A stretch of DNA of 64,000 nucleotides from Channallabes apus (lineage: Eukaryota > Chordata > Actinopteri > Siluriformes > Clariidae): the NCBI GenBank assembly GCA_030522415.1, contig CM060124.1:22063454-22127453 (forward strand), read 5' to 3'. Shown here one piece after another: positions 524-64,000 of the stretch (position 1 is the stretch's first letter; the number at the start of each line of letters is the position of its first letter). Below the pieces are notes generated by a model. That model was not told the origin of the DNA, ran no database searches, and was given only the letters and a program-made list of their open reading frames with translations. Both the position numbers and the translations under genes were made by a program.

Positions 524-960
524 ATGGTACCACTTGGGCTGGTTTGAGTATTTGTGCTGGTGGGCTGGTTTGAGCAGAAACTGCTGATCTGTTGATTTTC
601 ACACACAGTAGTCTCTAGAGTTCACACACAATGGTGGGAAAAACATAAAACCTCCTGTGTGGAGTGGGTTTGCAGGCTGAAAAAAACACCTTTAGAGAGA
701 TCAAAGGAGAATGACTAGACTGGTCAGACTTGACCGGAAGTCTATCACAACTAAAATAAGCAGTCTTTTACAATCGTGGTGAGCAAAAAAGCATCACAAA
801 ACATACTGTACAACACATCAAAGCTTGATGCGGATGGGCTACAACAGAAGAAGAACATATTCGGTTCTGCTCCTATCAGCCCAGAATAGGAATCTGAGGC
901 TGTCATGAACACAAACTTACTAAAACTGGGCAGTTGAAGACTGGAAAAATAACCTGTATT
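240..960 (+). mobile_element. Tc1-like transposon remnant, N-terminal part
   Basis: Degraded plus-strand sequence encoding the first part of a Tc1-like transposase. Recognisable pieces are VAWL..TTWAGLSI near 510-550, then a stretch near 595-950 that in the family encodes the paired-type helix-turn-helix region and reaches the NWTVEDWKN motif just before the first catalytic Asp. Frameshifts and stops are many and the C-terminal half is absent. The same family, in reverse, lies at 61855-62898 and as an end fragment at 7064. Family recognition is from memory of common teleost Tc1 sequences. Confidence 0.75.
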
Positions 961-1080
961 TTTTTCCCCTAATATCCAACTGTCTCGTTTGTGCCCTTGA
1001 TAGTCACAGATTTAAGTTCTCGGAACCCGGCGCATCATCCTCCTGAATGATGTTTTGATGTTTGGAGTCCAGTGGCACAT

Positions 1081-1542
1081 GCAGCTTCTACTGTAAATGG
1101 CGCATTTGGGCAAAGTGTAATCCCTATCATTTGGAGACCCGGGTTCGAACCCCGGGAGATGCTGTTTTAAATTTTTTTTATTTTAATTATAGCGAAATTA
1201 AAATAAATGAAAATAAAATTTTTATTTTAATTTTGCTCAGCATACTATAGGAAAAACAGCAAACTCATTACGCGACTCATTATGGTTGTATATCATGCTC
1301 TGAATAATAAATGTTCTGTTGTTATGTCTTCAATCATTGTAATTTGTAATTTTTTGTTTGTTTGCTGTTTTTTCTATAGTATGCTGAGCAAAATTAAAAT
1401 AAAACATTTTATTTTGTTTTATTTTAATTTTGCTATAATTAATATAAAAGAATTTTAAAACAGCATCAATCAGGATTCGAACCAGCGCTCTTCCTTTTCT
1501 CTGGGCGTGCACTCTACCACTGCGCCATTCAGAAGCTCTAAC
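1081..1542. mobile_element. Fold-back element with convergent tRNA-like ends
   Basis: Two arms, about 1081-1267 and 1355-1542, are imperfect inverted copies around an AT-rich centre of about 90 bp. Each arm carries a tRNA-like head. The right arm on the minus strand has box A TGGCGCAGTGGTAGAGTG and box B GGTTCGAATCC. The left arm on the plus strand has a perfect T-arm, CCCGGGTTCGAACCCCGGG. Both heads face inward into an A/T-rich tail ending AATTTTGCTCAGCATACTATAG. It is either two SINEs inserted tail to tail or one inverted-duplicated unit. The arms differ by a TACTGTA in the left arm. Confidence 0.7.
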
Positions 1543-2044
1543 ACTTCTATTGATTTTATCCTTTTTCACTTGGCTCTGTTAAGACGCAGACGCAGGAGAA
1601 CGTCCTGACAATGTTTTGATTTTATGGTCATTTATTTCAGTTAATAAATCTACTATAAATTTAAAGAACACAAGAAATAAGATGACACAAAACCCTACAC
1701 TCTTCTTTCCTAATTACACGTGATAAAATCTAAAGGCTCACTGTGTTAACATTTATTGTGCTTAAATTTGATCCTAATAAGATTTTATTTAATTTGAATT
1801 TGACATTTGTACTGTAATTCTTGTACTGTGATTATGAATTCGTTTAACTACAGTGTTTCACTACGTGCAGTTCTAAAGGAGCGCGTCTCATTAATCCGGC
1901 AGAGAATGAACTAAGGCATGAGGCATCAGTCTATAGTTATATAGCACCATTCAGTGGTAAAAGCCAGCAAACGCACAAACCCAAATGCTGTCGCCAAGCG
2001 CGGAGACGGTAAAACCGACGCTCCGATTAGGTGAACAATGTACT

Positions 2045-2505
2045 TTCTGAGATCCTGTTTTGCTCACCAAAGGTTAATTATAAAGGATTCTGTGATAATT
2101 TTTTGCTCACCATAGGTTAAATGATTAGGGACTCTGGGATTGTTTTATGCTCACCATGAGTTAAAAAACTAAGGATTCTGGGATCCTTTATTTTGCTCAC
2201 TGTGGGTTAAATTATTAAAGATTCTGGGATCCTGTTTTGCTTACCATGGATTAAATGATGAAGGATACTAGGATTATTTTTACTAGGATTATTTTTTTGG
2301 CTCGACACGGGTTAAACAATTAAGTATTCTAGAATTATTTTTTGCTAACCACATGGTGAGTGATTAAGGATTCTGGGATTTGTAGTTTTTTACCTTAGGT
2401 TAAACGGTTAAAGATTCTGGGATCCTATTTCGCTGATCATTAAGGATTCTGGAATCCTTTTTTGTTAATCTCAAGTTAAATGATTAAGAATTCTGGGATG
2501 TGCAT
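2045..2505 (+). repeat. Degenerate minisatellite, about 9 copies of a ~50-bp unit
   Basis: A run of diverged units, each with GATTCTGGGAT, a T-rich link, TTTTGCTCACCAT, GGTTAAATGATTAA and back. Unit length drifts between roughly 45 and 60 bp. One unit near 2374 reads GATTCTGGGATTTGTAGTT, which extends the shared core. No open frame runs through it. Confidence 0.8.
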
Positions 2506-2680: not shown

Positions 2681-4306
2681 TACAGTGGTGTGAAAAACTA
2701 TTTGCCCCCCTCCTGATTTCTTATTCTTTTGCATGTTTGTCACACAAAATGTTTCTGATCATCAAACACATTTAACTATTAGTCAAAGATAACACAAGTA
2801 AACACAAAACGCAGTTTTTAAATGAGGGGTTTTATTATTTAGGGAGAAAAAAAATCCAAACCTACATGGCCCTGTGTGAAAAAGTAATTGCCCCCTGAAC
2901 CTAATAACTGGTTGGGCCACCCTTAGCAGCAATAACTGCAATCAAGCGTTTGCGATAACTTGCAACGAGTCTTTTACAGCGCTCTGGAGGAATTTTGGCC
3001 CACTCATCTTTATAGAATTGTTGTAATTCAGCTTTATTTGAGGGTTTTCTAGCATGAACCGCCTTTTTAAGGTCATGCCACAACATCTCAATAGGATTCA
3101 GGTCAGGACTTTGACTAGGCCACTCCAAAGTCTTCATTTTGTTTTTCTTCAGCCATTCAGAGGTGGATTTGCTGGTGTGTTTTGGGTCATTGTCCTGCTG
3201 CAGCACCCAAGATCGCTTCAGCTTGAGTTGACGAACAGATGGCCGGACATTCTCCTTCAGGAGTTTTTGGTAGACAGTAGAATTCATGGTTCCATCTATC
3301 ACAGCAAGCCTTCCAGGTCCTGAAGCAGCAAAACAACCCCAGACCATCACACTACCACCACCATATTTTACTGTTGGTATGATGTTCTTTTTCTGAAATG
3401 CTGTGTTACTTTTACGCCAGATGTAACGGGACACGCACCTTCCAAAAAGTTCAGCTTTTGTCTCGTCGGTCCACAGGGTATTTTCCCAAAAGTCTTGGCA
3501 ATCATTGAGATGTTTTTTAGCAAAATTGAGACGAGCCTTAATGTTCTTTTTGCTTAAAAGTGGTTTGTGCCTTGGAAATCTGCCATGCAGGCTGTTTTTG
3601 CCCAGTCTCTTTCTTATGGTGGAGTCGTGAACACTGACCTTAATTGAGGCAAGTGAGACCTGCAGTTCTTTAGATGTTGTCCTGGGGTCTTTTGTGGCCT
3701 CTCGGATGAGTCGTCTCTGCGCTCTTGGGGTAATTTTGGTCGGCCGGCCACTCCTGGGAAGGTTCACCACTGTTCCATGTTTTTGCCATTTGTGGATAAT
3801 GGCTCTCACTGTGGTTTGCTGGAGTCCCAAAGCTTTAGAAATGGCTTTATAACCTTTACCAGACTGATAGATCTCAATTACTTTTGTTCTCATTTGTTCC
3901 CTGAATTTCTTTGGATCTTGTCATGATGTCTAGCTTTCGAGGTGCTTTTGGTCTACTTCTCTGTGTCAGGTAGCTCCTATTTAAGTGATTTCTTGATTGA
4001 AACAGGTGTGGCAGTAATCAGGCCTGGGGGTGACTACAGAAATTGAACTCAGGTGTGATAAACCACAGTTAAGTTATTTTTTAACAAGGGGGGCAATCAC
4101 TTTTTCACACAGGGCCATGTAAATTTGGAGGTTTTTTTTCTTCCTTAATAATGTAAACCTTCATTTAAAAACTGCATTTTGTGTTCAATTATGTTATCTT
4201 TGACTAATAGTTAACGGTTTTTGATGAGCAGAAACATTTAAGTGTGACAAACATGCAAAAGAATAAGAAATCAGGAAGGGGGCAAATAGTTTTTCACACC
4301 ACTGTA
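2681..4306 (-). mobile_element. Tc1-like element, copy 1, near-complete 1.6 kb
   Basis: The element is bounded by inverted terminal repeats. The left end reads TA-CAGTGGTGTGAAAAAC and the right end the reverse complement followed by TA, so the TA target duplication is kept. The ends contain a long subterminal repeat (left to about 2810, right from about 4140), as in elements of the IR/DR arrangement. The transposase frame fills the middle on the minus strand. A near-identical copy lies at 29385-31055 and a degraded relative at 23592. Confidence 0.95.
2901..3893 (-). CDS. Tc1-like DD34E transposase, copy 1 (N-terminal frameshift)
   Basis: A 330-residue frame from an internal Met. It encodes a cut-and-paste transposase that binds the terminal repeats and moves the element to TA sites. 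Residues 1-45 form the first helix-turn-helix (KAISKALGLQ..TVRAIIHKW). A GRPTKI AT-hook-like motif follows at 49-54, then a second helix-turn-helix to about 120. The catalytic triad is visible: Asp143 in WTDETK, Asp234 in QQDNDPKH and Glu269 in LNPIEMLW, with exactly 34 residues between the last two. The family start codon lies upstream at 3924, where the protein would begin with MTRSKEIQ. One extra C near 3899-3901, absent in copy 2, shifts the frame there. The product as read lacks about ten N-terminal residues. Activity is uncertain. Confidence 0.9.
   Translation of the reverse strand: MRTKVIEIYQSGKGYKAISKALGLQQTTVRAIIHKWQKHGTVVNLPRSGRPTKITPRAQRRLIREATKDPRTTSKELQVSLASIKVSVHDSTIRKRLGKNSLHGRFPRHKPLLSKKNIKARLNFAKKHLNDCQDFWENTLWTDETKAELFGRCVSRYIWRKSNTAFQKKNIIPTVKYGGGSVMVWGCFAASGPGRLAVIDGTMNSTVYQKLLKENVRPSVRQLKLKRSWVLQQDNDPKHTSKSTSEWLKKNKMKTLEWPSQSPDLNPIEMLWHDLKKAVHARKPSNKAELQQFYKDEWAKIPPERCKRLVASYRKRLIAVIAAKGGPTSY

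Positions 4307-5009: not shown

Positions 5010-5012
<3 letters not shown>
4307..5012. other. Unassigned stretch
   Basis: I see no recognisable repeat or gene between the Tc1 right end and the GT array. The longest open stretch (4346-4567, plus) has no family resemblance and is probably chance. One TACAGTA lies at 4338. Confidence 0.5.
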
Positions 5013-5645: not shown

Positions 5646-6960
5646 ACGAGGTAATGTGGAACGACTTAGAAGCAGTTACTTAGGGAGACAAAGTGCTGTT
5701 TAAGAAGACATAGTGTTATCTGATGAAACGATATTTTCTTGCTGAAAGTGCTTCCATGACTGATTTTGAAGGTTGGTTTTGGCAGGCGGGTGCTCTCCCA
5801 CCTTTCCTGTACTGCGTCGCACCACTGAATCTTTCAGCAGCATACAGTACCCAACCATACTGACTTACATTATCCCACTGTAGAGTTACGTAGCACATAC
5901 TGTAAAGATAACACATACAGCAAGCATAAAGCATGGACAAGTGTATTACTTACTTATTTCTGTATCATGTGTTAGCTGTTAAATGATGTCCCGAAACACT
6001 TCTTGCACCCAACTGAACTTACAGTATGTGCGTGTGTGCCTTTCCCAGACACGCTTACTTCATGTTGTTACAGCTGCACTCTCCTGTATTCCTGACTCAG
6101 CCATCAGGTGCTTTCCTCCTTCAGCGTCTCCTTTTGTTTTTTTTCTCTTTCCTCCTTGATTCCTCCTTCCCACTCATTTTTTTTTTCCAGCTTGCGGTGA
6201 ACTGAGCATGGTGGTGGATATGCACAAGTTACATGGCAGGAGCAGTGAGTTGATTGGCAGGACAGGCAGAGGTTGACTGATGATAAGCTCTCTTGGACGC
6301 TCAGCTGCATTCCACAGCCTCTTTGCCTAGGTCCTGTATTGCTCTTAATGCATATTTTTTAACATTGTGGGCCATGAACTTTTTTTTTTTTTCTGGGTGT
6401 GAGTATTTATTTTAAAATACCATGTTGGCCAGTTAATTAAAGAGTTTGGATGCTCCTTAGACATCTGTGCTCTGATATATGTGTCTGTGTGAGAGAAGCG
6501 GTATAATAGAAAAACGGTAGAGCATTCAGGACTGTCTCTCATTCTCTCACTCAAGTATGACTTGTATATAAATTGTATACAGTACAGTACTTACAATATG
6601 TGTATCTAAGTGTGACTTGCTTGACATATTAAAAATCAACATTGTCAGTATTGTGTGTGTGCACTCACTTGTTCAGCTTTGTCTCTGTTTATTCTCTTTT
6701 GCTCTGGGGAAAAAAGAGACATATCAGGACACGTTGCTGTCCCTGGGTACATGCTGTATGAAGCTCATGTGTAGATGTTTCCCAGAAGTACAGCTACCTA
6801 CCGTGCAGATTACGTCAGTTTCTAATTAAAACACACTCACATAGCGTGCCAAATGCTGAGGTAGAACCCCTGCACTATTCCCACTTTGTGTATTTTCTTA
6901 CTGCCTTGGAAACGAGTTCTCTGTGGAGGAGACGGATATGTGTAAACACAGCAAGTGCAG

Positions 6961-10045: not shown

Positions 10046-10775
10046 GGGTACAGAATGTTCTGCAGAGTGGGAGGAGTTTGGAGGAGCATGGATAAGTCTT
10101 ATATAATCCTTATTCTGATAATATAAAACTTATATAATTTTATTTTTGCCCATTTTGGCTAGCTTTGGCCAGGTTATATAAAACATTGTCCTTCAATGTC
10201 ACTTGCGTAGTTTAAGGTACCATGTAGATAACACTGTTACTCATGCTAACATATTGCCTTTTTGAGCTTAGCACAAACATTTTAGCTCCTGGTGACTAAG
10301 CTAATTTCTTATGTAGATTACAGATGTTTGTCAGTATCAGCGGTGGTGTAAATATTCTAATGTATTTTACTCAGTTTTGGATAACTTTAGCTTACAGTAG
10401 ATATTTGGTTTAGTTTTTAATGGTTCAGAAAGAGTATAGAATGTTCTGGACAGTGGGAGGAGTTTAGCTTTTCCTCAGAACAACACTGAGACTCCAGCAA
10501 GCTGTCACCATGGGTGAGTTATTCTCATATAATCCTTATTCTGATACTATAAAACTGATATTATTTTTTTTTTCCTCATTTTGGCAAGCTTAGGCCAGCT
10601 TATATGAAACATTGTCTTTCAATGTCACTTACGGTACATAGTTTAGGGTAACATGTAGATAACACTGCTAATCATGCTAACATGTCAGTATCAGCTGTGG
10701 TGTAAATGTTCTAATGTATTTCACCCCATTTTGGATAGCTCTAGGTAGCTATTTGATTTAGTTTTTGGTTATGAC
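10046..10775 (+). repeat. Diverged ~390-bp direct duplication
   Basis: Bases 10046-10435 and 10432-10775 align in order. Shared blocks include AGAATGTTCTG then GTGGGAGGAGTTT, ATAATCCTTATTCTGATA, AAACATTGTC-TTCAATGTCACTT, ATGTAGATAACACTG, and GTGGTGTAAAT-TTCTAATGTATTT. The copies are diverged by point changes and indels, so the duplication is old. No coding sequence is recognised in it. Confidence 0.75.
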
Positions 10776-11628
10776 ATTGCTATCTATAATGTTATTTAGT
10801 ACAAACACTTTAACTCCAGGTGGCTAAAATACTGGGTTATGTATTTTACAGATTTTCATGATTAAGATCATTAAGATATTCAGATAAAGCTGGTAAGCTG
10901 TTGTATGACTTTAGGAAAGCTTGTGTTGTCTTTATGTATGGTCATTAGTGATTGGTGATGATAATATACATTAATGCATTTTGTTGTGTTATCATGCTCA
11001 TGTTGTTTTTTTTTTCTTTTTTTATAAACAGTTGTGACAGTGAAAATGATCAGCCACCTGTTTGATAGAAAGCAAATGCAAACAAGCAGGCAAGATACAG
11101 ACGTCCATCACTGTCATGGAAAACACAGACTGATGTTGACTCGCTATTCCTGCCCACATGGGAACCTGGACCACAACTGGGGTCTGGATTGGGATCGATT
11201 TCTTGTGTATACAGTAAGTAAGGATACACAGTCACACATCCTTGTGCCACTCTTGAAAAGCAGTTCCTGTTCAACTGATGACATAAGTAAACATGTCATA
11301 CCTGGCATTTCCATGGTGTATTTTGTATACATGGTATATACTGTAGCTTAACACGCTTTTTACATCATGCACTGTTCCTGTTTGCATGTTACCCTGAATG
11401 TGTGTTTTTATACAGCCTTATTTATACCATAAATTAGCCTTCTGTGTATCATCTAAGTTTATCTTACTTAGAAAATGTAAATTAATATATTGTTTTCTGT
11501 GAATGAGTGAGCAGGATGATTGTCACATCATTTTGAATGTCTTGTACACAAATTTTATGAATGAGGTTTGTGGCTTTATTTCAGTGACTTCTTTCTTTGT
11601 TGTTTTCAATAACCATGCATAATTGTCA
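10776..11628. other. Unassigned stretch
   Basis: No repeat recognised. An open stretch at 11032-11215 follows a good acceptor-like tract (T-rich then AACAG), but its apparent donor, ACAGTAAGT, overlaps a TACAGTA footprint heptamer at 11210. I do not call a gene. Confidence 0.4.
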
Positions 11629-11908
11629 TTCATTCATTCATCTTCTATACCACTTTATCCTGTATTTAGGGTCGCGGGGACCTGGAGCCTATCCCAGGAG
11701 ACTCAGGGCACAAGGCAGGGTACACCCTGGACAGTGTGCCAATCCATCGCAGAGCACACACACACACTATGGTCAATTTTGGGAACGCCAATTAGCCTAA
11801 TCTGCATGTCTTTGGACTGTGGGAGGAAACCAGAGTACCGGGAGGAAACCCACCAAGCACGGGAGAACATGCAAACTCCATGCACACAGAGACGGGAATC
11901 GAGCCTTG
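11629..11908 (-). mobile_element. DANA/mermaid-type SINE, head-truncated, joined to LTR element
   Basis: Minus-strand SINE: the (ATTC)n tail, TCTATACCACTTTATCCTG, ACCTGGAGCCTATCCCAGGA, and the promoter-distal body, ending at GGGAATCGAGCC. It lacks the tRNA box A half. It abuts the integrase frame of the LTR element exactly at CAAGGCTCGATTCCC (reverse strand). The copy at 45689 starts at the same internal point. Confidence 0.9.
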
Positions 11909-12058
11909 TGATTCGGGGTGATAGGCAGTGGAGACCTGATGGTTAATTTTCAACTCTCTAATTACCTGAGAGAACAGGCGTGACATGAAATTAGAGCCAC
12001 GATCAGTCTGTATGCATTTAGGCATGCCAAATGAGCCAGTTTTAGAATCTGTGATCAT
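11909..12058 (-). pseudogene. Retrotransposon integrase core fragment
   Basis: About 50 codons with the integrase core signature PKCIQTDRGSNFMS (second catalytic Asp in TDRG) followed by STAYHPESQG, the site just before the catalytic Glu. The frame ends at the SINE junction, so the Glu region and C-terminal domain are missing. Just upstream (12060-12290) a degraded frame contains a stretch like that between RNase H and the integrase zinc-binding domain. Non-functional. Confidence 0.85.
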
Positions 12059-12355
12059 GAGCCAGTTTTAGAACCTGTGGCCAGAGGGAGCAGGGGACCA
12101 CCACCTGGAACCTTTCCAACCAACTATCAGATGACCCATGAGGGAGACTATTTCCTCAAGAGAACATCATTCTCTATAAAATAAGCAATCAGATGATTCA
12201 TCAACTCAGACTTTTCCACTATAGAAGAAAAAAACACCGTGCTAAGGACGGGTCTGCTTTTTGAGCTGCAACAAACTGGTCATGTGAAACAGGCAGTTCA
12301 ACATCTAGCTCAGCACTAAAAAAAGGCATCATTAGGTGTCACATCACAACCACTG

Positions 12356-12829
12356 TCAGTAATTTTGCCCTCTAAAGGTCCCTCTTGACACAAGTCTCAA
12401 TGTCTCAGAAAGATCTACCACATCACCCAACTTCTTTTGCTGGGCACGAGTTAACACACAGGTGTGAAACACAGAGGCATACTGGATGGCTACATCAGGA
12501 CTGTTATTCACAGGTTCAGACACAAATTCAGGTAGGGAAAACACTTTATTACCAGCTGTATCATTTCCCAAAATGAAAGATATCCCACTAACGGGTAATG
12601 TTGCATGTACAGCCACCTTTACAAGCCCGGGGAAACCTTCAGTTTCCAGATATACATGATGTAGGGGTACATGGATTACAGTCAACTCAATGCCTTGAAT
12701 TAGAACATCACTGCACACGTAGGAGGCTTCTGTGAGGGGAAGCACACTTTTTAAAACAAAAGACTGAGCAGAACCAGTGTCTCTTAAAACCTTTACCAGA
12801 TACTTCACCTCATCAACACCTAACGACAC
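12356..12829 (-). pseudogene. Retrotransposon aspartic protease region
   Basis: An open frame of 157 codons. The protease active-site motif is LRDTGSAQSFV near residues 15-25, and the flap/C-terminal part contains SFILGNDTAGNKV. Retropepsins process Gag-Pol as dimers. The frame stops after residue 157 where reverse transcriptase should follow, so pol is deleted. The start at 12829 is simply the first Met; in an intact element this would be read as part of a Gag-Pol polyprotein. Confidence 0.8.
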
Positions 12830-12959
12830 ATAACCTGAAGAAACAAATGATTCGGCTCAATAGTACAAAAATACTGGCTCAATAGTACACTTCAGAACTG
12901 AAATATCTGACATGATCTCTGCTGCATTAAGTTTCTTAACTGCAGCCTGCTGTCTCACT

Positions 12960-13944
12960 CCTTTACATTTCAGTACTGGGCACATGGAAATTAAATGACC
13001 TTTTTTGTGACTGTAAAAGCAGTCTCAAGATTCATAAGGGGAACCGGTGGATGAGCGAGTCTGGGGAGGTGGACTAGACTTCAATGGGCGCAAGGACACA
13101 TCCTTACACGAAGAAGAGCTACTAAAAACAGTTTTGTGGGTTAGCACAAACTCATCGGTGAAAATGGCAGCTTTAGACAGAACATCAATCTTTTGCTCAT
13201 TCAAATACACAGCTACCTTCTCAGGAACACAAGACTTAAACTCCAGCAACATCAACTTTTTAAGCTGCTCAAATTCGTCACACCACTAGCCGAGCACCAT
13301 TTATCAAACTGGATGGCTTTCGCACAAGCAAACTCAACATAAGTTTGACTGTCTGATTTAAAAGAGTTTATAAAACTCTGCCTGTAAGCTTCAGGCACGT
13401 GCTCATATGCACGGAGAACAGTGGCCTTTACCACTTCATAATCTACACTTTGTTCCAGCATGAGAGCTGAGCATGCTTCCGTGGAAGTGGTACTGGCTTC
13501 CTTCTCTGAGCAGCCAGTTCGAGCTTCTTACTCTCAGCATCCAGCTCCCTATCCCGAACGCGCAACAGCTCCGTCTGATACTCCTGCCGCTTAATTTCCA
13601 GCTCCAGCTCCTTCAGAACAACCTGCAAACCGGGGTCAACTGTAACAGCCCGTAGCCGTTCTGAACCTACACCACCCACTGACCGCTCTCCAAGCTCCGC
13701 AGCGCCGTCTAGCACCCGAACCTCGAAGGGGCGGGGTGGCGACACCCGGATGCACCTCTCGTTCAGGTAAGACCTGCAGAGCCACTAGTGCCTGATACAA
13801 TGCCGCTTTAACATCCTTCTTTGCAGCTAGCCTTGGAAATGTGATATCAAAGAAATCTGCTATTAAAAGCAGATCGTCCTTCCTACACTTATCAAAATCC
13901 TGCAGATTTGGACAAAGTGTAAACATAATAAGGTCGAATGCCAT
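12960..13944 (-). pseudogene. Retrotransposon gag with SCAN-like capsid region
   Basis: Gag is read in three frames. It starts MAFDLIMFTLCPNLQDFDKC at 13944 and shifts frame near 13735 into a coiled-coil-like, Glu/Arg-rich stretch (LKELELEIKRQEYQTELL). It shifts again near 13455 into a SCAN-like block (YRQSFINSF..YVEFACAKAIQFDKW, then LMLLEFKSCVPEKVAVYL after a third shift near 13255). At the C-terminal end a knuckle reads CFYSHKKGHLISMC, a CX2CX4HX4C pattern whose second Cys is Ser. The SCAN resemblance is by eye. Confidence 0.75.
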
Positions 13945-14020
13945 ATTTCACACTAACAGACCCACAAACCTGGGGATAATGCAGAAAAGAGAAGACGAGT
14001 ACTTTCTAACTTTTAGCTGG

Positions 14021-14038
14021 ATCGCGGACGAGCCCCCA
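14021..14038 (-). other. Second tRNA-Pro primer binding site
   Basis: The minus strand reads TGGGGGCTCGTCCGCGAT, matching the usual tRNA-Pro binding site except one base. It precedes the longer gag frame at 13944 but has no recognisable LTR on its right. Confidence 0.75.
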
Positions 14039-14097
14039 ATTCCTCCCCATGCTCTGCTACTGTTCTTGTGTCACCGGCCCTTGGGAGAGGTTGAGTA

Positions 14098-14330
14098 CCA
14101 ACTCCCTCAGATACATCATGTTAGGGTAAGACCTGATCAGCCACAAGTGGCTCATAGATGGTGGCCTTAACCACGTTTTTACTAGCTGATTTGGGGACCA
14201 AAATGTTAAAGCAATCAGCTATTAGGAGGAGATCATCCTTCGTACATTTATCAAATTCCTCTAAAGTAGGACAAACAGTGAACATGGTCAAATCAAATGC
14301 AGCAATATTTGGGAAATTACTCACACTAGC
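14098..14330 (-). pseudogene. Extra gag N-terminal fragment
   Basis: Encodes AAFDLTMFTVCPTLEEFDKC and LLIADCFNILVPKSASKNVV, clearly related to the start of the gag at 13944 but diverged. It therefore comes from a related element rather than from a very recent local duplication. It ends near VADQVLP, and a degraded continuation runs into the second primer binding site. Confidence 0.85.
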
Positions 14331-14367
14331 TGAAGGTAGAATGCTATAATTGAAAGTCTTGTTTAAT

Positions 14368-14385
14368 AACCCGGACAAGCCCCCA
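14368..14385 (-). other. tRNA-Pro primer binding site
   Basis: The minus strand reads TGGGGGCTTGTCCGGGTT, four bases inside the LTR edge. It matches the tRNA-Pro 3' end at 16 of 18 positions by eye. This is where the cellular tRNA would prime minus-strand DNA. Confidence 0.85.
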
Positions 14386-14389
14386 CTTC

Positions 14390-15689: not shown

Positions 15690-15740
15690 TTTTGGCTGCT
15701 CCCACCAAGAGGTCGCCACAGCGGATCATCCGATTGAACT
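15690..15740 (-). mobile_element. RTE LINE 3'-tail scrap
   Basis: GGCTGCTCCCACCAAGAGGT and CGCCACAGCGG are the reverse of the GTGGCGACCCCT..GGGAGCAGCC tail seen at 16960 and, in related form, at the end of the RTE LINE at 21720. Only about 50 bp remain, next to a SINE. Confidence 0.6.
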
Positions 15741-15755
15741 TTTTTCAGGCCAAAA

Positions 15756-16800: not shown

Positions 16801-16839
16801 AAATTTGAAACTAGTTTTTTTCTGTAGTAAATTTAGTGT

Positions 16840-17879: not shown

Positions 17880-18623
17880 GTGTAATCCCAGTAAGTTTTG
17901 CAGAATATCAGGCTGTCCCCGGTGTTTTTTTCTTAGAGAGAATGACTTTGCTGCTGCCCTTCTTGAAATGTATGAAGGTGAGGTAACATCAGTATTGTGT
18001 CATGCCAACAGTAAAGCATCCAGAGACTATTCAGTTGGGAGTGGGCTCACTCACAATTTTGCAAAAGACAGCAATGATACAAAAACATCCTCTTTGTGCA
18101 ACTTCTCCCAACCGTCCAAGAACAGATTGGTAAAGAACAATGCCTTATCCACCATGTTGGAGCTCCTTACTGTATAACTAAGTGGCCCAGGGAACAAAAC
18201 ATTGAAATTTTGGGTCCATGGCCAGTAAACTCCTCAGACTTTAATCCGATTGAGAACTTGTCATCAATCACCACACACAATCAAAAACCCACAAATTTGA
18301 ACAAACTTCAACTATTGATTATGCAAGAATGGCCTACCATCAGTCAGGTTGTGGCCCAGAAGTTGATTGACAGCATGCCAGGATGAATTGTAGAGGCTTT
18401 GAAAAAATAAGAGTCAACACAGCAAATGGACTCTTTGCATAAACTTTATGTACAGTAATTGTCAATAGAAGCTTTTGACACAAAATGATATGCTTTTAAT
18501 CATACTTCAGTATACCATAGTAGCATAGTAAAAAATAAAAAATAAAAAATTATAAACACTGAAGCAGCAGACTTTGTGGCCATTTATATGTATGTCCTTA
18601 ACCAAATTTTGGACATGGCTCTA
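17880..18623 (+). mobile_element. Tc1-like remnant (family B), transposase C-terminus
   Basis: Plus-strand remnant of the family also present at 50863-51596. The end of the transposase is readable at 18190-18385: a diverged third catalytic region (SDFNPIENL) then LLIMQEWPTISQVVAQKLIDSMPG. Stops and frameshifts are many. The right end carries a decayed terminal repeat near 18600-18620. Compared with the copy at 50863 it holds a 5-bp insertion at 18451 and lacks the one at 51241. Confidence 0.8.
18451..18457. other. Tc1 excision footprint, paralogue-verified
   Basis: Here the sequence reads ACTTTATG-TACAGTA-ATTGTC; the related copy near 51436 reads ACTTG-TA-ATTGTC. Removing CAGTA restores the shared sequence. 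The form TA-CAG-TA is what a Tc1/Sleeping Beauty-type excision leaves. Confidence 0.75.
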
Positions 18624-19959: not shown

Positions 19960-19971
19960 CATAATACAGCA

Positions 19972-22575: not shown

Positions 22576-23591
22576 TGAATGTCCATGTTGGCAATAAACA
22601 TTTTCCAAATACTTTTTAAAATGCAAAACATATGTACACAGATTTTGTGTGTTATTAATAATACTTTTGATGTTGTTTAATAGACTGAAAAAGCAGCTAT
22701 TTAAATGACGCTTTAAAAATTACAGCATACCTGTATGAGGTCAAATTTAACATGGTAAACATTTGCATTTCCAGATTCACTGTTGATATGAACAGTTATA
22801 CACTAAAATACCATAAACTTAGGGTAATTCAAAGCTTTTATAGACAAGGCAATATATCATACCGATCCTCTAAAAGTCCCTGTGTAACCACAGGAAATAA
22901 TTTCCAGTAGTCAGCGTCTTACAGCATACCAGCTTTACTTCTCATTTCCAGTTTTCCCTTATTTCTGTAATGACATATACTTTATTTTTCTAAACCTCTG
23001 TTAATGAAAAAGGACGTCATATTCCTTTTTACTAGGGAACTCCAATTCATTTACTGGAAACCTTGGTCCTCTGTTGTCAGACTCATGACATTTACAGTAT
23101 GTCCTTTTGTTTGTAACACACTTTCAGGGTTCCTTAAAATCTGAAGTAGACAGGCAAAACTCTAACATTCTGACCACAATGTCACTGAGTAAAGGTCACT
23201 TTTTACTAGCTTGCATTGTCATTGGTGACCACTTCAACTGTATTAACCCCTTTTCGGGTATTTTTAGCTGAACTGCATCAAATCCCTTTTCTTTTTTAGA
23301 TTTTACGATCATTGTGGTCTTTCTGCTGTAGTGGACTAGTTAAAATTCTGCATTATAATGTGCATGGGTGAATGCATTACGTATAAAACATGACAAAAAG
23401 GCCAAAAGGTTCTTGATAATCAGCAGGTTATAAGCCCACTGAAAATTTTTTTTTAGCTGTCTCATGGAGACAAACAACGATTTAGACCACAGACACATAC
23501 AGTATAATGCAAACTAGGAATGGTAATCACGAGTGACCACCTGACGCAGTAATGTCAGGATATGTACTGTAGGTGCCAATTTTTATAAATA
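22576..23591. other. Unassigned AT-rich stretch
   Basis: No gene or repeat recognised. Footprint heptamers at 23093, 23498 and 23565. Confidence 0.5.
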
Positions 23592-24126
23592 CAGTGATGT
23601 GAGAATGTGTTTGCCCCCTTACTGATTTCTTTTTGTTTTTGCATGTTTGTCACACTTTAATGTTTCAGATCATGAAACAAATTACAATCTTAGTCAAAGA
23701 TAACAGAAGTAAACACATCATGCAGTTTTTAAATGAAGGTTTTTATATATAAGAGAAAACAAAAACCAAAACTACATAGCCCTGTGTGAAAAAGTGTTTG
23801 CCACCTGAACCTAATAACTTGTTGGGCCGCCCTTAGCAGCAACAACTGCAATTAAGCGTTTTTTCGATAACTTGCAATGAGTCTGTTACAGCACTGTGGA
23901 GGAATTTTAGTCCACTCATCTCATCATTGTTGTAATTCAGCCACATTGGTAAGGTTTCAAGCATGAACCACCTTTTAAGGTCATGCCACAGCATCTCAAT
24001 TTGATTAAGGTCAGGATTTTGACTAGGCCATGACCTACACAGGACTTCATTGTGACCTTCAGCTTGAGGTCAGATGGCCAGACATTCTCCTTCAGGATAT
24101 TTTGGTACACAGCAGAATTCATGGTT
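23592..24126 (-). mobile_element. Degraded relative of the 1.6-kb Tc1 element
   Basis: Closely follows the left end and transposase C-terminus of the copies at 2681 and 29385 (CCCTGTGTGAAAAAGTGTTT, AACTTGTTGGGCCGCCCTTA, AGCATGAACCACCTTTTAAG). It has an internal deletion near 24035 and stops abruptly at the AGAATTCATGGTTC region. The terminal repeat is decayed (AGTGATGTGAGAATGTG). Confidence 0.9.
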
Positions 24127-24159
24127 CAAATGACCAAAACAGAAATTAATTTACCAACC

Positions 24160-25869: not shown

Positions 25870-26046
25870 TTATTTCATCTTCTATACCGCTTTATCCTGT
25901 ATTCAGGGTCGCGGGGACCTGGAACCTACACCAGGAGGCTTAGGGCATGAGGTGGAATACACCCTGGACAGGGTGCCAATCCATCACAGGGCATACACAC
26001 ATACAGTACACACACTCATTCACACACTACGGGCAATTTGGGCACT
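25870..26046 (-). mobile_element. DANA/mermaid-type SINE, 3' half
   Basis: Minus strand; TTCTATACCGCTTTATCCTG, GGTCGCGGGGACCTGGAACC, ending CACTACGGGCAATTTGGGCA. The head is missing. A 5-bp CAGTA insertion (26002-26008) in ACACATA-CAGTA-CACACAC is absent from the copies at 15756 and 58603. Confidence 0.9.
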
Positions 26047-29384: not shown

Positions 29385-29603
29385 TACAGTGGTGTGAAAA
29401 ACTATTTGCCCCCTCCTGATTTCTTATTCTTTTGCATGTTTGTCACACAAAATGTTTCTGATCATCAAACACATTTAACTATTAGTCAAAGATAACACAA
29501 GTAAACACAAAATGCAGTTTTTAAATGAGGGGTTTTATTATTCAGGGAGAAAAAAAATCCAAACCTACATGGCCCTGTGTGAAAAAGTAATTGCCCCCTG
29601 AAC

Positions 29604-30626
29604 CTAATAACTGGTTGGGCCACCCTTAGCAGCAATAACTGCAATCAAGCGTTTGCGATAACTTGCAACGAGTCTTTTACAGCGCTCTGGAGGAATTTTG
29701 GCCCACTCATCTTTGCAGAATTGTTGTAATTCAGCTTTATTTGAGGGTTTTCTAGCATGAACTGCCTTTTTAAGGTCATGCCACAACATCTCAATAGGAT
29801 TCAGGTCAGGACTTTGACTAGGCCACTCCAAAGTCTTCATTTTGTTTTTCTTCAGCCATTCAGAGGTGGATTTGCTGGTGTGTTTTGGGTCATTGTCCTG
29901 CTGCAGCACCCAATATCGCTTCAGCTTGAGTTGATGAACAGATGGCCGGACATTCTCCTTCAGGATTTTTTGGTAGACAGTAGAATTCATGGTTCCATCT
30001 ATCACAGCAAGCCTTCCAGGTCCTGAAGCAGCAAAACAACCCCAGACCATCACACTACCACCACCATATTTTACTGTTGGTATGATGTTCTTTTTCTGAA
30101 ATGCTGTGTTACTTTTACGCCAGATGTAACGGGACACGCACCTTCCAAAAAGTTCAACTTTTGTCTCGTCGGTCCACAAGGTATTTTCCCAAAAGTCTTG
30201 GCAATCATTGAGATGTTTTTTAGCAAAATTGAGACGAGCCTTAATGTTCTTTTTGCTTAAAAGTGGTTTGCGCCTTGGAAATCTGCCATGCAGGCCGTTT
30301 TTGCCCAGTCTCTTTCTTATGGTGGAGTCGTGAACACTGACCTTAATTGAGGCAAGTGAGGCCTGCAGTTCTTTAGATGTTGTCCTGGGGTCTTTTGTGG
30401 CCTCTCGGATGAGTTGTCTCTGTGCTCTTGGGGTAATTTTGGTCGGTCGGCCACTCCTGGGAAGGTTCACCACTGTTCCATGTTTTTGCCATTTGTGGAT
30501 AATGGCTCTCACTGTGGTTCACTGGAGTCCCAAAGCTTTAGAAATGGCTTTATAACCTTTACCAGACTGATAGATCTCAATTACTTTTGTTCTCATTTGT
30601 TCCTGAATTTCTTTGGATCTTGGCAT
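29604..30626 (-). pseudogene. Tc1-like DD34E transposase, copy 2 (nonsense codon)
   Basis: The same transposase as copy 1. Here the natural start is in frame: ATG at 30626, MPRSKEIQEQMRTK. A TGA stands at codon 36 (30519-30521), where copy 1 has CAA (Gln) in GLQQTTVR. After it the frame is open for 302 codons to the normal stop after GGPTSY. The catalytic triad is kept (WTDETK, QQDNDPKH, LNPIEMLW). About nine residues differ from copy 1 over the shared 302. The stop falls within the first helix-turn-helix, so a product restarting downstream would lack part of the DNA-binding domain. Confidence 0.9.
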
Positions 30627-30782
30627 GATGTCTAGCTTTTGAGGTGCTTTTGGTCTACTTCTCTGTGTCAGGTAGCTCCTATTTAAGTGATTTCTTGATT
30701 GAAACAGGTGTGGCAGTAATCAGGCCTGGGGGTGACTACAGAAATTGAACTCAGGTGTGATAAACCACAGTTAAGTTATTTT

Positions 30783-30915
30783 TTAACAAGGGGGCAATCA
30801 CTTTTTCACACAGGGCCATGTAGATTTGGAGTTTTTTTCTCCCTTAATAACATAAACCTTCAAATCTCCAAATCTACAGGGCCCTGTGTGAAAAAGTGAT
30901 TGCCCCCCTTGTTAA
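30783..30915. repeat. Palindromic duplication inside Tc1 copy 2
   Basis: TTAACAAGGGGGCAATCACT..TTTGGAG at 30783-30831 is mirrored by CTCCAAATC..TTGTTAA at 30866-30915, leaving a 34-bp spacer. Copy 1 has a single version at 4080-4130. Confidence 0.9.
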
Positions 30916-31055
30916 AAAACTGCATTTTGTGTTCAATTATGTTATCTTTGACTAATAGTTAACGGTTTTTGATGAGCAGAAACATTTCAGTGTGACAAAC
31001 ATGCAATAGAATAAGAAATCAGGAAGGGGGCAAATAGTTTTTTTACCCCACTGTA

Positions 31056-33200: not shown

Positions 33201-34404
33201 TTACTGTATACAAATAATGTCTTTTTTTAACAGTACATTTTCAATGAAGAAACCATGCTGGTATTCAGTTTTTTCTTTTTAATCTGCAGAACTGATGATG
33301 TACAAAGGGTGTTCATATCAATTTCTCATGAATTAAGACATACAGTAAAATCAATTAACATTTACAAAAGAAATCAAGCTGTATGTCTGTGAATGACGAT
33401 TCCAGCCAAGGTGGCTCGGAGCCCTAAAGGAAGAAGAACTTGTCAAAAACGTGATGAAGAGACACATCTGTCTGTGGGAACTGTCCACAGAATCATTCAC
33501 CACTTGCACATTAAAGGAACTTGGCTGCTACTGTAGTTATTGCCACATCCCTCCTGGCATGTCGTCCTGTGTTCCTGGGAGAGACTCAATGTCTCCCTAG
33601 ACCCAGAATCAAGTGGCTGTTGATACTATAATATAAGGCTTAAGATGAATGAATGATTCAGTAATAATATCTTGATGTATTACATTTAACAAGCATAACA
33701 CTTACGTACTCAAAATATGCTAATTGGAGTACAGAAGTATGGTTTTAGGTGCTTGAGAACAATATTAGCTACAACTTCTTGCAGATGTTCCAGATTGGAC
33801 CGAATAGGAAGTACCTCTGTTGACCTTTTAATGGTAGGTGCTTATTCTAACTGCAAAGAGTTTCCTGTTTTGAAATAAGTGCTGCTGCCAGGATGTCCTT
33901 GTGTGACTTGTATAACACAGTCATACTGTAGGTTAACAAATAGAACACATTACACAGTTCTTCCAGAAAAAAAAATGAGTAAGGACATATCCGTTCGATT
34001 AAACACTTTACTACTTTCCGATCATTTCACACCCTTACTTGTTAAATGCTAGGAAACTACTCCTGAATTACCTCACTTGAAATTTCCCTTCCTTCCCCTG
34101 TACTTTTACTCATCTCCATCCTTCTTTTGCTTCTTTGGACCCTAAATATATATATATATTTTATCATATCAATATTGAAATACATATACACAAAGTAAAA
34201 TGCAACTTCTTTCCATCTCACACAAACATCGCAGCTCGGCTAAACAACAATGTTGAAAGTCCAGACAGCGTCTAAACTTCACAGTAGAGACCTTTTATTT
34301 CCAGTGTTTTCCCCCTATTGTTAAAGCATATAAACAATACAGACCATAGCATTAAGCAATTTAGAGAAACTAAATCTAAATATGTTTTAGTCCGAGGGAA
34401 AGCT

Positions 34405-50862: not shown

Positions 50863-51596
50863 TACAGCCTTGGCCAAAGGTTTTGAGAATGACACAAACA
50901 TTAATTTTTTCAAAGTCTGTTGCTTCTGTGTTTTCGGATATTTTATGCCATCCGAAAAAAAAAGGTGTCCGGCAGGGAGAAAAATTGAGTGCTACCATCA
51001 GTCTTGTGTCATGCCAACAGTAAAGCATTCTAAGATTATTCATGTGTCTGGTTGCTTCTCAGCCAAGTGAGTGTGCTCACCCACAACCATGTGTTCAACC
51101 AAGAACACAGCCATGAATAAAGAATGGTACAAAAACATCCTCTGAGAGCAATTTATCCCAACCATCCAAGAACAGTTTGGTGACAAACAATACCTTTTCC
51201 AGCATGATGGAGCTCCTTGCCACAGGGCAAAAGTGATAACTACAGTAAGGCGCTCGGGAATAAAACATAAATCGCCAAGAGGCAGGTGAACAAATAAAAA
51301 TTCTGACAACTTTCAAGAATTGATTATGCAAGAATGGACTACCGTCAGTCAGGATGTGGCTAAGATGTTTATTGACAGCATGCCAGGGCCGAATTGCAGG
51401 TGTCTTGAAAAAGACAAGTCTTTACTATTTACATAAACTTGTAATTGTCAATAAAAGCCTTTGAAACTTATGAAATGTTTGTAAATATACAGTATACCAC
51501 AGTAACATCTGACAAAAAGATCCAAAAACACAGGAGCAGCAGTCTTTGTGAAAATTAATACTGGTGTCATTTTCAAAACTTCTGGCCACGTCTGTA
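50863..51596 (+). mobile_element. Tc1-like element (family B), both ends, internally deleted
   Basis: Left end TACAGCCTTGGCCAAAGG.. and right end ..CTTCTGGCCACGTCTGTA form inverted repeats with TA at each side. The inside is a shortened transposase gene (VSG..CFSAK, QFGDKQYLFQHDGAPCHR with the second catalytic Asp). The span with the third catalytic residue is partly deleted near 51260-51310. The partner copy is at 17880. Confidence 0.85.
51241..51247. other. Tc1 excision footprint, paralogue-verified
   Basis: Here TAAC-TACAGTA-AGG; the copy at 18174 reads TAAC-TA-AGTGG. Removing CAGTA restores agreement. It is the reciprocal case to 18451. Confidence 0.75.
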
Positions 51597-52130: not shown

Positions 52131-52690
52131 GCAACCCACATACATACATAATGTAAATACATACATACATACATACATACTGTACTGTACAAACATACAT
52201 ACAAACATACATACATACTGTACATACTGTACATACATACATACATACATACATACATACTTACATACATACATACATACTGTACACACATACATACAAA
52301 CATACATACTGTACATACATACTGTACATACTGTACATACATACATTCATACATACATACATACATACATACTGTACATACATACATTCATACATACATA
52401 CATACATACATACTGTACATACATACATACAAACATACATACTGTACATACATACTGTACATACTGTACATACATACATTCATACATACATACATTCATA
52501 CATACATACGTACTGTACATACATACATACATACATACATACATACATACATACATACATACATGCACACATACTGTACATATATACATACATACATACA
52601 TACATACATACATACATACTGTACATATATACATACATACATACATACATACATACATACTGTACATATATACATACATACATATAGTAC
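52131..52690 (+). repeat. (CATA)n array interrupted by CTGTA inserts
   Basis: About 550 bp of CATA tetranucleotides. Roughly eighteen inserts of the form CATA-CTGTA-CATA break it, plus occasional ATTC and AAAC units. Long open frames of Tyr-Ile-His-Thr or Met-Tyr-Val-Cys repeats on both strands are artefacts. Some inserts occur in repeated groups, so array expansion has copied them. Confidence 0.97.
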
Positions 52691-58990: not shown

Positions 58991-59729
58991 ATAAACTTTT
59001 TGGAAAGAAAACCATTTACCGTTCATGTACTGTACATACTGTATTTTTTTCTGGCTTGCTACAATATAATTTCATTTACAAAAACAACTGCAAAGAGAAA
59101 AAAAGGGATTGGCATCATTGTCAATGCTGCTGTTGAGTGCTAAGAACCTCCTTATATGACCGAGGTTTTACAGGAAACAAAAGTGCCTGAAGAACAATCT
59201 TACTGTAGTCATTTCACAAGAAAGTGTGGGAAAGATTTACGAGGACCGAAGTTGCCTTTCAGAAAGGAAATATCCAAATTGTGCGAGACCTTCTGGAATG
59301 GGAAGTGGGAAAGATCTAACAGAACACAGTTACGAGACTAAAACCTACCTTTTATTCTCTATATATTCCCCTGGAACTCTTTTAATGGCCCAAACACATG
59401 GAAATGGCTTGGGGCGAGATCAGGACTGTACCGGGATGTGGCAATAACTCCCAATCGAGTTAATATAATGTGCAAGTGGTGTTGGTGAATGATTGGGTGT
59501 ATCGTGTTCATGTGTTCAGAGCAGTGGCCCCCGTGCTGCCACTGCCGCGATCATTCATCATTTATGGATGTAAAGGCTTCTTTAAAAAGTTTGCGCCATT
59601 TATTGTTTTACTGTGGCTCATCACCGTATTGTACTTGAAATCTTTGTTTTTACACCTTCATTCACAAAACATGTCCTGGGTTGACTTGAACGCCCCTTAT
59701 ATTTACCAAACAGTACCTCATTTAAATTT
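58991..59729. other. Unassigned stretch
   Basis: Nothing recognised; footprints at 59028, 59037, 59201. Confidence 0.45.
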
Positions 59730-60893: not shown

Positions 60894-60934
60894 TGGCCTC
60901 AGTAACCACAATGAAAATATATAAAAACGTGCAC

Positions 60935-60997
60935 AGTGGTACCTCCGGAACTCATCTCCAGAACTGATTAAATTTGACTGCAGAGATACCACTGTAC
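60935..60997. mobile_element. Short palindromic MITE remnant
   Basis: CAGTGGTACCTCCGGAACTC on the left and GCAGAGATACCACTGTA on the right are inverted. About 63 bp in all, TA on the right. Confidence 0.55.
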
Positions 60998-61854
60998 AAT
61001 AAAACAAAAGACTGAAACTCATGTCAAATTTAAACAGAGTTTAAATAATTTTTCGGATGACATAATAAGCATCCAGGGCAAGAGTTTTAGTTAATAATCA
61101 CTTTTTTTTTGTATGATGCATTTATCAGCATTCACTGATGTGATTTTATGTGGTATTGGTAAATAATGCACTATATCGTATAATCCTGAGCCTAATAAAA
61201 GGTCTCATCTTATTATATACAAATCTCAAGTAAATGTTTGTGATAAATGTTTAAAAGTTCACAGATTATGTTTATACTACAATCACGCTTTTCCTGTCCA
61301 CTACCGATGTATGCGTTATCGTGAAAACAAGATTATGAGTGCCAGATGTGCAACATCTGTTTGGCTGCCACCTGCACCACCTAGAGAACAGTTTGTTCAA
61401 CAGCCTGCGATGTGTCTGTTTTCATTCCGTTTTTCTAACATACGTTTGCAACCTACGTTTCCTTCTCTGTCTAATGTCCAAACGCCCATCTGTCCCTGCT
61501 ATTGACGTATACAGCGAGGCTCCTGGAATGGGAGGAGTGATGGGAAATTATGCAACTTTATTTGCTACAGATGTATGCAGTCTGGTGAGGGCGGAAAGTC
61601 GCTGTGACAGACTGACATGACTTTAATCTTCTATAATACTTTAGCAGCATAGAGGCTGTCCATGAAAAGTAATGTCTGAATACTTAATCAGATCTACAAC
61701 CAACACCCCCCAACACAACCGCCCACCCTCTAACTTCCACATTTCTTGTTACATTTTGTCACACACAAGAGAAAGTGATTTCCAAATTCACATAAATCTA
61801 ACAAGATGTTAGAGTATTTTAACATGCAGAACATTACAGTATGTATCTCAAATA
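60998..61854. other. Unassigned stretch
   Basis: Nothing recognised. The GC-richer part at 61300-61620 has an open stretch on the plus strand with no known motif. Confidence 0.45.
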
Positions 61855-62898
61855 TACACTCACTGGCCACTGCTTTAGACTCATGTTCTGCTTAAATTCT
61901 TTGTGGCACAGTCTCAACAAGGTCCATAATGATGTACCACAATGGCCCATAATGACATGATAGAGAAATATTCTTTCCACCAGTCATCTGTCCGATTCCT
62001 TGGTTACATCTCTCTCTCCACCACATCCCGAAGATGCTCTATTGTATTGAGGTTTGGTGACTGTGGAGGTCATGCGAATACAATGAACCCATTGGCATGT
62101 TCAAGAAACTGGTTTGAGATGGCTTGAGCTTTGTGTCATGGCACATTTACCTTGTGGTCATACAGGGATGGACATGGTCAGCAACAACACTCAGATAGGC
62201 TATGGCATTTTCACAATGCTCAATTGCAGAAAAGCTCAACCGCTCCACCACTACTCATGAACAGTTGATACACGGCAGGATACTGTAGATCCATGCTTTT
62301 ATTTTGTTTATGCCAAATTCTGACTCTACCATCTGAATGTCGCAGCAGAACTCGAGACTCATCATGCTAGGCAACGATTTTCCAATCTCGTACGTCTAAT
62401 TTTGGTGTGCTCATGCGAATTGTAGCCCCAGTTTCCTGTTCATAGCTGACAGAAGCGGCACCCGGTGTGGTTTTCTGCTGCTGTAGCCCATCTGCTTCAA
62501 TATTCGATGTGTTGTGTGTTCAGTGATGCTCTTCAGCATAACTTGGCTGTAATGAGATGAAAGATGCATTTTTATCCATTCTCATCTGACAAGACATTTT
62601 CAACCAGAGAACTGCCGCTTACTGGATATTTCCTTTTTTCAGACCATTGACTGTAAACCCTATAGATGGTTCTTTGTGAAAATCCAAGTGGAAATACGTA
62701 CCAGCCCATCTGACATGCACCAAGTCACTTAAATCACCATTTTTCCCTATTCTGATGCTCAGTTTGAACAGATTGTCCTGACTATGTCTCCATGCATGAA
62801 TGCATTGAGTTGCTGCCAGGTGATTGGGTGATTAGGTACAGTATTTGCATTAAAGAGCAGTTTAACCAGACTTCCTCATGAAGTGGCGGGTGAGTATA
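61855..62898 (-). mobile_element. Tc1-like element, both ends kept, decayed
   Basis: Left end TACACTCACTGGCCACTGC, right end AAGTGGCGGGTGAGTATA, inverted and flanked by TA. The transposase is on the minus strand. Recognisable blocks are GGTCATACAGGGATGGACAT, CAAATTCTGACTCTACCATC, GTCGCAGCAGAACTCGAGAC and GCTGCTGTAGCCCATCTGCT. The same family as the fragment at 240. Two TACWGTA heptamers (62281, 62837) look like 5-bp insertions into the family sequence as I remember it. Confidence 0.85.
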
Positions 62899-64000
62899 CT
62901 GGGGGAAAACACTTTAACCAAACAAAGTTTAGCATTACAGTTATTTAATAACACTCAATAATTTTTAAGTACACTTCTCTCTGGTTGCAGTTCCATATCA
63001 CAGCTTTTTTACACTTACGTATATCACTTGTAATAAGTACTTGTGGACTAGGCCTGGTTTAGGAATGATAAACATTTACCCTGTGTCCATGGTATAACTT
63101 GGAGACTTACACATGGTCTCCACCTGAAATTTAGGGACATTCCTCCATTTACGTATGACTTAGCAAAGCACCCAAATATTATTCTGAGCCAAGTCATGAT
63201 TGGAGGAACCTAGAGCTTTCCTAACTATCTCCAGGCAACAGAGACATCAAACATGCAGCACTCCCACCTTTTTGGTATGTGGTCCTGCTCCAGCTTACTC
63301 CTTGGATTTTTTTTCCCCCTCCTCATGCAAACATTGTAGATATAGGCTAGTCTCTGGGATTGCAGACAGCGTTTATAGAACTACCTTGGTTGCCACAGCT
63401 GGAAGGTTGGAGGCCCCCTGTATATTTGCATTGAACACAGCTGTGTGACTTGGAAGAAAGGGCCAAGAGGCCTAATGTCAATAGATTTGAATAAACATCC
63501 AGACTTCAGAGACGGAGGGGGGAGATAAAGGCGTACAAGGGAGGGAATAACCTACAGTACATGGCACCTGTATTATTTGAACTTATTTTTAACTTAGATA
63601 GCATCATGTAATGTACAGTAGGGTAACAAATCTGCTGTCAACAACAGCACGACTAAGGTAAATAATGTGCATTAGAATGGCATTATTCATTCTTTTTCTT
63701 GACAGTAGATGAAAATGTATCATAGTTGATGACATTTTATCAGAAACAGAACTATCACTGAATTATTAGTTTCAGATAAGTCAGTAGACCCCATGACAGA
63801 TGAGTTTGTGCTTGTGCCATCTTCCCCTAACGATGCTGAAAGACATGCGTGAAAGCCTGAAACTCCCATTTGACATCAGGATCGCTAAGCTCATCACTTT
63901 GCAGAAACTTCATCCGATAAAGCAATTTATGACTGCTGCTGATGTACAGCTGGCTGCACCATCACTAATGGATTTTAAACATGCTCCTTGGACCTGGAAA
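62899..64000. other. Unassigned stretch to window end
   Basis: No gene or repeat recognised. Open stretches are short. Footprints at 63553 and 63614. Confidence 0.45.

Follow-up and report, generated by a model that had tools for sequence, protein, structure and literature searches.

TACWGTA heptamers as probable footprints of Tc1-type excision in the genome of the clariid fish Channallabes apus

The Tc1-type transposon Sleeping Beauty is cut from DNA with a stagger that leaves three-nucleotide 3' overhangs, and end joining then makes a footprint (available passages of PMC7827188); TACAGTA and TACTGTA are the consensus footprint heptamers used for this system (PMC4378557, as excerpted). The target of ZB, an active zebrafish element, is a ATATATAT palindrome, described in the accessible parts of the source as similar to those of Sleeping Beauty and Bari (PMC7913693). 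Here we describe a 64,000-nucleotide stretch of the fish Channallabes apus (GenBank assembly GCA_030522415.1, contig CM060124.1, positions 22,063,454 to 22,127,453 of the forward strand; 'the window') in which the same two heptamers, together TACWGTA (W, A or T), are in such excess that they are very probably footprints left when Tc1-like transposons with CAG at the start of their ends were excised in the germline. Two features hold them all:

804..63620, no strand: 128 TACAGTA/TACTGTA outside the CATA array, read as Tc1 excision footprints; about 11–16 expected by chance
52138..52690, no strand: CATA tetranucleotide array with 18 TACTGTA, used for phase analysis

Expectations were drawn from base composition and from first-, second- and third-order Markov models. 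By exact count the window (60.7% A+T) contains 146 of the heptamers, 59 TACAGTA and 87 TACTGTA, against 12.7 expected from base composition and 11.2 from the first-order model. A first-pass annotation, which assumed 62% A+T, had counted about 145 by hand, 18 of them in the array, with some 13 expected, and the observation is confirmed; its tenfold excess is right for the window, as the 128 heptamers outside the array compare with 15.9 under the second-order model and 10.8 under the third-order model with CWGTA removed. Its start positions were exact for 126 of these 128, the other two being 21904 (given as 21905) and 28893 (given as 28903). Ranked by the second-order model, TACAGTA is third among the heptamers of the window, the other seven of the first eight all being simple repeats. 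The specificity lies in the three-base core between the two TA, which is CAG or CTG almost exclusively, no other TA-N3-TA class being comparable: z is 27.6 for TACAGTA and 4.2 for the runner-up, TAGCCTA (12 versus 3.5 expected). The ratio of CAG to CTG outside the array (59:69) is uninformative either way because the two words are reverse complements, which balance anyway, and we dropped that balance as support for the footprint reading.

The excess extends well beyond the window. An independent sample of 20 stretches of 10 kb (200 kb), taken at 10 Mb on each of contigs C1–C20, contained 178 heptamers versus 35.7 expected, ranking sixth behind five simple repeats; the next TA-N3-TA classes were TAGCCTA (33 versus 11.2) and TATCATA (71 versus 38.6). 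In the pooled sample (the window plus stretches L009–L028, 263 kb) there were 306, compared with 14–77 for 23 other W-centred palindromes of equal A+T content and with 42 +/- 6.6 (maximum 57) in 60 third-order simulations. Finally, a scan of the whole assembly (93 contigs, 1,164,683,209 bases or 1.165 Gb) returned 979,603 TACWGTA against 260,532 occurrences of the reversed pattern, our genome-wide control, a surplus of about 0.7 million. The first-pass annotation had held that equal counts of TACWGTA and permuted heptamers would speak against it, and the counts are far from equal. Its estimate of about two footprints per kb fits the window (2.02 per kb) and not the genome, which averages 0.84 per kb; two controls put the background share of this at roughly 20–27%. 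The density of the window is thus 2.4 times the genome mean, and exceeds that of all 20 sampled stretches (range 0–1.9 per kb).

An excision scar should appear as a 5-bp insertion at TA. We compared TACWGTA sites within the one assembly and classed each site by the net length difference around it relative to its best paralogue (at least 80% identity, within 288 kb). A usable paralogue was found for 19 of 314 sites, of which eight showed a net 5-bp gap, four a conserved heptamer, one a substitution and six other gaps. For the other TA-N3-TA words taken as controls, 283 of 1561 had a paralogue, and these gave one 5-bp gap, 169 conserved words, 88 substitutions and 25 other gaps. The difference (8/19 versus 1/283; Fisher 4e-10) points to insertion where paralogues exist, and it remains when any paralogue is allowed (11/19 versus 4/283). 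Locus L008, which overlaps L007, was excluded from the queries, while L004 and L005 also overlap, so that a few sites are counted twice; an unselected set that avoids these overlaps and omits loci fetched for holding a hit gave 6/14 (of 304 sites) versus 1/222 (of 1456), with Fisher p 9e-8. The sole control with a 5-bp gap among the 283 is TACGGTA, one change away from a footprint.

Seven of the eight gaps are contiguous (that at L015:8180 is split), and the TA is intact in the empty copy in four (L001, L007, L023, L027), the remaining empty copies being more diverged. The insert at L001:1501 is missing from two distinct other copies (94–97% identical), that at L023:5566 from three (89–93%) and that at L007:1501 from four (96–98%). 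One such insertion reads TTACCTGCTA[CAGTA]TGTCC; another, GATCATGCTA[CTGTA]TTCTT, is absent from four copies at 96–98% identity, and in a fifth, 70% identical, the gap is shifted. Conversely, among 51 five-bp gaps, 12 are of TA-N3-TA form, and 10 of those 12, at seven distinct places, are CAG or CTG. Individual sites in the window are as follows:

804..810, no strand: TACTGTA with a contiguous 5-bp gap versus paralogue 62424-62533; TA not intact in that diverged copy
26002..26008, no strand: TACAGTA in a dispersed repeat, with a contiguous 5-bp gap versus copy 15770-15937
33529..33535, no strand: TACTGTA with a contiguous 5-bp gap versus 59433-59481 and L020:1425-1538; both copies are diverged and lack an intact TA
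10393..10399, no strand: TACAGTA with a 6-bp gap versus paralogue 10687-10766; not counted as a 5-bp insertion
18451..18457, no strand: TACAGTA with an 8-bp gap versus paralogue 51424-51499; not counted as a 5-bp insertion

The site at 26002..26008 shows other gap sizes versus other copies, owing to CA repeats, and its best-paralogue class is a 9-bp gap.

The CATA array provides an internal ruler. Deleting 17 CTGTA from it restores the 4-bp phase, so that a mixture of four phases becomes a single one, shared by 94 of 97 CATA, and lag-4 identity goes up from 0.74 to 0.91. All 17 in-phase insertions read CTG; duplication of the array must therefore have copied some of them, and they are not 17 independent events.

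The flanks of the heptamers resemble a Tc1 insertion target. With the half-sites of the window pooled, A is favoured at -3 from the TA, a pyrimidine at -2 and a purine at -1 (p < 1e-6 at each position), with no clear signal at -4 to -8 (at -5, p 0.03 uncorrected); we take the target of Sleeping Beauty to be AYATATRT. The same three positions stand out in the independent 200 kb (p 9e-7, 8e-13 and 1e-7; at -6, p 0.015 uncorrected). Half-sites with all three preferences (AYR) make up 68 of 256 in the window, versus 8.7% at all TA (p 5e-17), 84 of 356 in the independent 200 kb, versus 10% (p 1e-13), and 423,381 of 1,959,206 (21.6%) genome-wide, versus 37,192 of 521,064 (7.1%) for the reversed control.

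Heptamer density is also higher the less identical the host repeat is to another copy. Taking identity to the best copy within the sample as a proxy for age, and leaving L016 out of the pooled stretches, we found no TACWGTA in the 18.5 kb where repeats reach 95% identity or more (0 per kb), four in 14.7 kb at 85–95% (0.27 per kb), 23 in 22.3 kb below 85% (1.03 per kb) and 279 in 197.9 kb of sample-unique sequence (1.41 per kb), a class of which some will recur elsewhere in the genome and to which the dense window contributes much. The trend is significant (chi-square p 3e-8, two youngest classes merged), while the 23 control palindromes are flat across classes (mean 0.16–0.18 per kb). Flanks, 5-bp gaps, CATA phase and this relation to repeat identity all support the reading of the heptamers as Tc1 excision footprints that the first-pass annotation had proposed, and on its own test the sites resemble a 5-bp insertion more than a substitution.

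Candidate sources are resident in the window:

2681..4306, no strand: resident Tc1-like element, 1626 bp including the TA on each side, with TACAGTGGTGTGAAAAACTATTTGCCCCC at either end; no internal TACWGTA
2901..3920, minus strand: transposase open reading frame (ORF), 339 amino acids stop to stop, with HTH_SB, HTH_Tnp_Tc3_2 and DDE_3
29385..31055, no strand: another resident copy, 1671 bp including the TA on each side, with a shorter ORF (304 amino acids); no internal TACWGTA
23590..24130, no strand: remnant of a diverged Tc1-like relative, approximate at its right edge
50863..51596, no strand: CAG inverted-end element from a different family, 734 bp, Tc1-like as judged only from its ends; two internal TACWGTA, at 51241 and 51488

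The element at 2681..4306 is Tc1-like by its Pfam domains, which score above cut-offs, its inverted ends and its TA duplication. Among the 120 matches listed for its transposase, the best named are from Polypterus (95%), Erpetoichthys and Xenopus (94%), a likeness that may point to horizontal transfer; searches of viral and genome contig collections with the transposase and the terminal sequence returned no related DNA. The copy at 29385..31055, with ends TACAGTGGTGTGAAAAACTATTTGCCCCC or close to it, occupies the right-hand TA of the TACAGTA at 29380. A third full copy, in L017, also has no TACWGTA inside, and the three share 97.8–98.2% identity across the longest stretches that align.

CAG-ended elements flanked by TA duplications are abundant in the genome. 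The resident CAGTGGTGTG family has 25,187 exact 26-nt ends and 29,573 near-exact ones (up to two mismatches), equivalent at two ends each to roughly 13,000–15,000 copies, and many ends, among the places listed, are paired about 1.6 kb apart; near-identical ends across thousands of copies suggest recent transposition. A second CAG-ended family has 688 ends (up to two mismatches). Both favour AYR targets, at 14,649 of 25,187 ends (58%) in the dominant family and 120 of 331 (36%) in the second, a value that may include duplicated places. The surplus heptamers amount to some 50 per copy of the dominant family. There is no sign that this family re-enters footprints, at which 188 of its 25,187 ends lie (0.75%), versus roughly 1.2% if all TA were equal.

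In the mechanism we propose, transposase would cut both ends of a full insertion with a 3-nt stagger, so that the broken chromosome ends retain TA plus three transposon bases. On end joining, C would pair with G either side of a central mismatch, and resolution of this mismatch to A:T or T:A would yield TA-CAG-TA or TA-CTG-TA, with a net 5 bp added at the original TA. In Sleeping Beauty the mismatch is known to lie at the centre and to be resolved to A or T. The intermediate would thus be a complete insertion, later excised, and the scar a product of end joining.

Several observations weigh against this reading. The higher density of the window than of the genome has no explanation, and only 19 of 314 sites have a usable paralogue; at four of these 19 (one repeat family, four places) the heptamer is conserved, and seven show other gaps or a substitution. 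The window taken alone is weak, with nine of 128 sites spanned, two having a modal gap of 5 and the others scattered (among window-only controls, 51 of 371 were spanned, 35 with no gap and two with a gap of 5). None of the heptamer sites is seen filled, and a single assembly, with no relatives, offers no filled, empty and footprint trio at one locus. The flank signature, at 21.6%, is weaker than the 58% of the young family. Finally, nested heptamer pairs are somewhat too frequent in the pooled sample (11 versus 5.5, p 0.025), for example:

6578..6589, no strand: nested heptamer pair with a TA in common; further pairs start at 17206, 57150 and 58394

It is nonetheless hardly credible that TACWGTA owes its frequency to composition, mutational bias or a functional motif, without any transposon. 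The heptamer is palindromic and might conceivably serve as a binding motif, and most sites do lie in sample-unique sequence; however, composition-matched palindromes have no comparable enrichment, a share of the testable sites prove to be 5-bp insertions when set against paralogues, the CATA array is interrupted in phase, and density varies with host-repeat identity. The mouse genome, moreover, spans 2.7 Gb. On that basis the 'over 300,000' sites given for mouse in the available text of PMC4378557 come to about 0.11 per kb. Also highly improbable, if marginally less so, is that the heptamer is generally part of dispersed repeats or miniature inverted-repeat transposable elements, lying inside them or forming termini that read TACAGTA. 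This is true for a small share, since one repeat family has a conserved TACAGTA (L002, L003, L007, L023) and one small element has TACAGTAAGTCC ends:

L019:6758-6950: small element, 193 bp, with inverted ends TACAGTAAGTCCCCGACTTA, the ends themselves reading TACAGTA

As a general cause it is contradicted: the TACAGTAAGTCC end occurs on just four hits in 264 kb, the 128 window sites have no clear shared base preference past the three flanking positions, and 279 of 306 heptamers lie in sample-unique sequence, with none in repeats at least 95% identical.

A different question is whether the footprints, if real, come nearly all from one recent burst of the resident CAGTGGTGTG family. Its many thousands of exact and near-exact ends mark that family as very active, now or in the past, but we consider such an origin unlikely. 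Its target preference is far stricter than that of the footprints, and therefore the young family did not supply most of them, unless flanks within (TA)n have been lost; the footprints, about a quarter of them background, are nearer the second family in their AYR share. In addition, footprints are scarce in repeats above 85% identity (four in 33.2 kb), one-mismatch relatives of the heptamer are in surplus in the pooled sample (1037 versus 887 expected), as they should be if many footprints are old, and the other-family element at 50863..51596 itself holds two heptamers. Under excision by Tc1-like elements, then, most footprints probably derive from other or earlier Tc1 families than the dominant resident one, and we infer a mixture from several families over a long period, in which old scars dominate and the current burst is a late contributor. 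If activity was constant back to some limit, the footprint rate is about one per 110 substitutions in the pooled sample and about 150 in the 200 kb alone, rough figures that rest on a small difference between large numbers. We think it reasonably likely that most Tc1 insertions in this lineage were removed by excision and not by mutation, a standing indel process whose age-graded record would be 5-bp germline scars numbering around a million, or, very roughly, one for every 110–150 neutral substitutions.

Other TA-flanked words were examined alongside. A surplus of TATCATA/TATGATA with target-like flanks in the pooled sample was rejected, as it came largely from one AT-rich repeat stretch, L016, which held 40 of the 71 outside the window; with L016 removed the flank share is 10/94. 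This stretch (contig C8 at 10 Mb, 10 kb) is repetitive throughout, 32% G+C, with 40 TATGATA and no TACWGTA. The Tc3-type word TA-CA-TA is not enriched in the window (63 versus 62.7 expected) and is in slight excess in the pooled sample (277 versus 236; flanks 76/554, p 0.001). In the pooled sample TACGTA is mildly up (28 versus 20.7; flanks 12/56, p 0.007), possibly as trimmed footprints, and TAACTA is raised (173 versus 113), with target-like flanks at 63 of 346 half-sites (p 8e-7).

The longest heptamer-free stretch of the window, 11340-17205 (5.9 kb), has long minus-strand ORFs at 12356-12856, 13443-13784 and 14121-14510, with no Pfam match, and is possibly a younger retroelement insertion. 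Fragmented reverse transcriptase ORFs resembling those of retrotransposons without long terminal repeats lie at 19919-21730 (plus strand), with one internal heptamer (20678); the best matches to long interspersed nuclear elements (LINEs) are from various teleosts. A UnaL2 LINE 3' element (Rfam RF00436) occupies 35-88 on the minus strand, and a 158-bp unit is repeated twice at 213-523 (99% matches). An inverted repeat of about 90 nt at 1142-1483, with GGTTCGAA at both ends, has a transfer RNA-like look, and ARAGORN called no transfer RNA in it.

Natural germline loss of DNA transposons is hard to measure because the excised element is gone. Here departures become countable and roughly datable in one assembly, at about 0.7 million versus 29,573 near-exact ends of the dominant family. 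If the reading is true, scars count past germline transposon activity, which still-present elements cannot give. The same scoring could be applied to any fish assembly, making the balance of excision to insertion, the transposon share of natural indels and the history of Tc1 waves testable. It also carries a caution: in such genomes TACWGTA counts, 5-bp indels and repeat interruptions are not a neutral background.

A full-text literature search, of partial coverage and so weak evidence, found no report of a genome-wide TACWGTA excess or of a natural vertebrate Tc1 footprint count. The medaka transposon Tol2 is a hAT element. For it a 'paste-and-cut' process has been described by which small interspecies indels may be old scars, but these vary and leave no recognizable trace unless watched, whereas the present scar is recognizable and countable (PMC6419827, a meeting report, in part). 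DNA-transposon excisions distinguishing Asian and African rice likewise generate natural variation across the genome, without an excess of a word in a single genome in the portion of the report at hand (PMC4423477). ZB resembles the present case in its 0–3 bp footprints, its palindromic target and an insertion listed as TAcagc, and differs in that its footprints were assayed on donor plasmids in HepG2 cells, a genome count being absent from the passages available (PMC7913693). Another close system is Sleeping Beauty in transgenic mouse tumours, with the same two heptamers and the same 3-nt core at TA, although that system is engineered and somatic, and its natural genomic sites are treated as background, according to the excerpts of PMC4378557. 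Compared with these systems, the kind of event and its mechanism are already known, while what seems to be new is the density of the scars, the way they serve as a dated record and their number relative to the elements.

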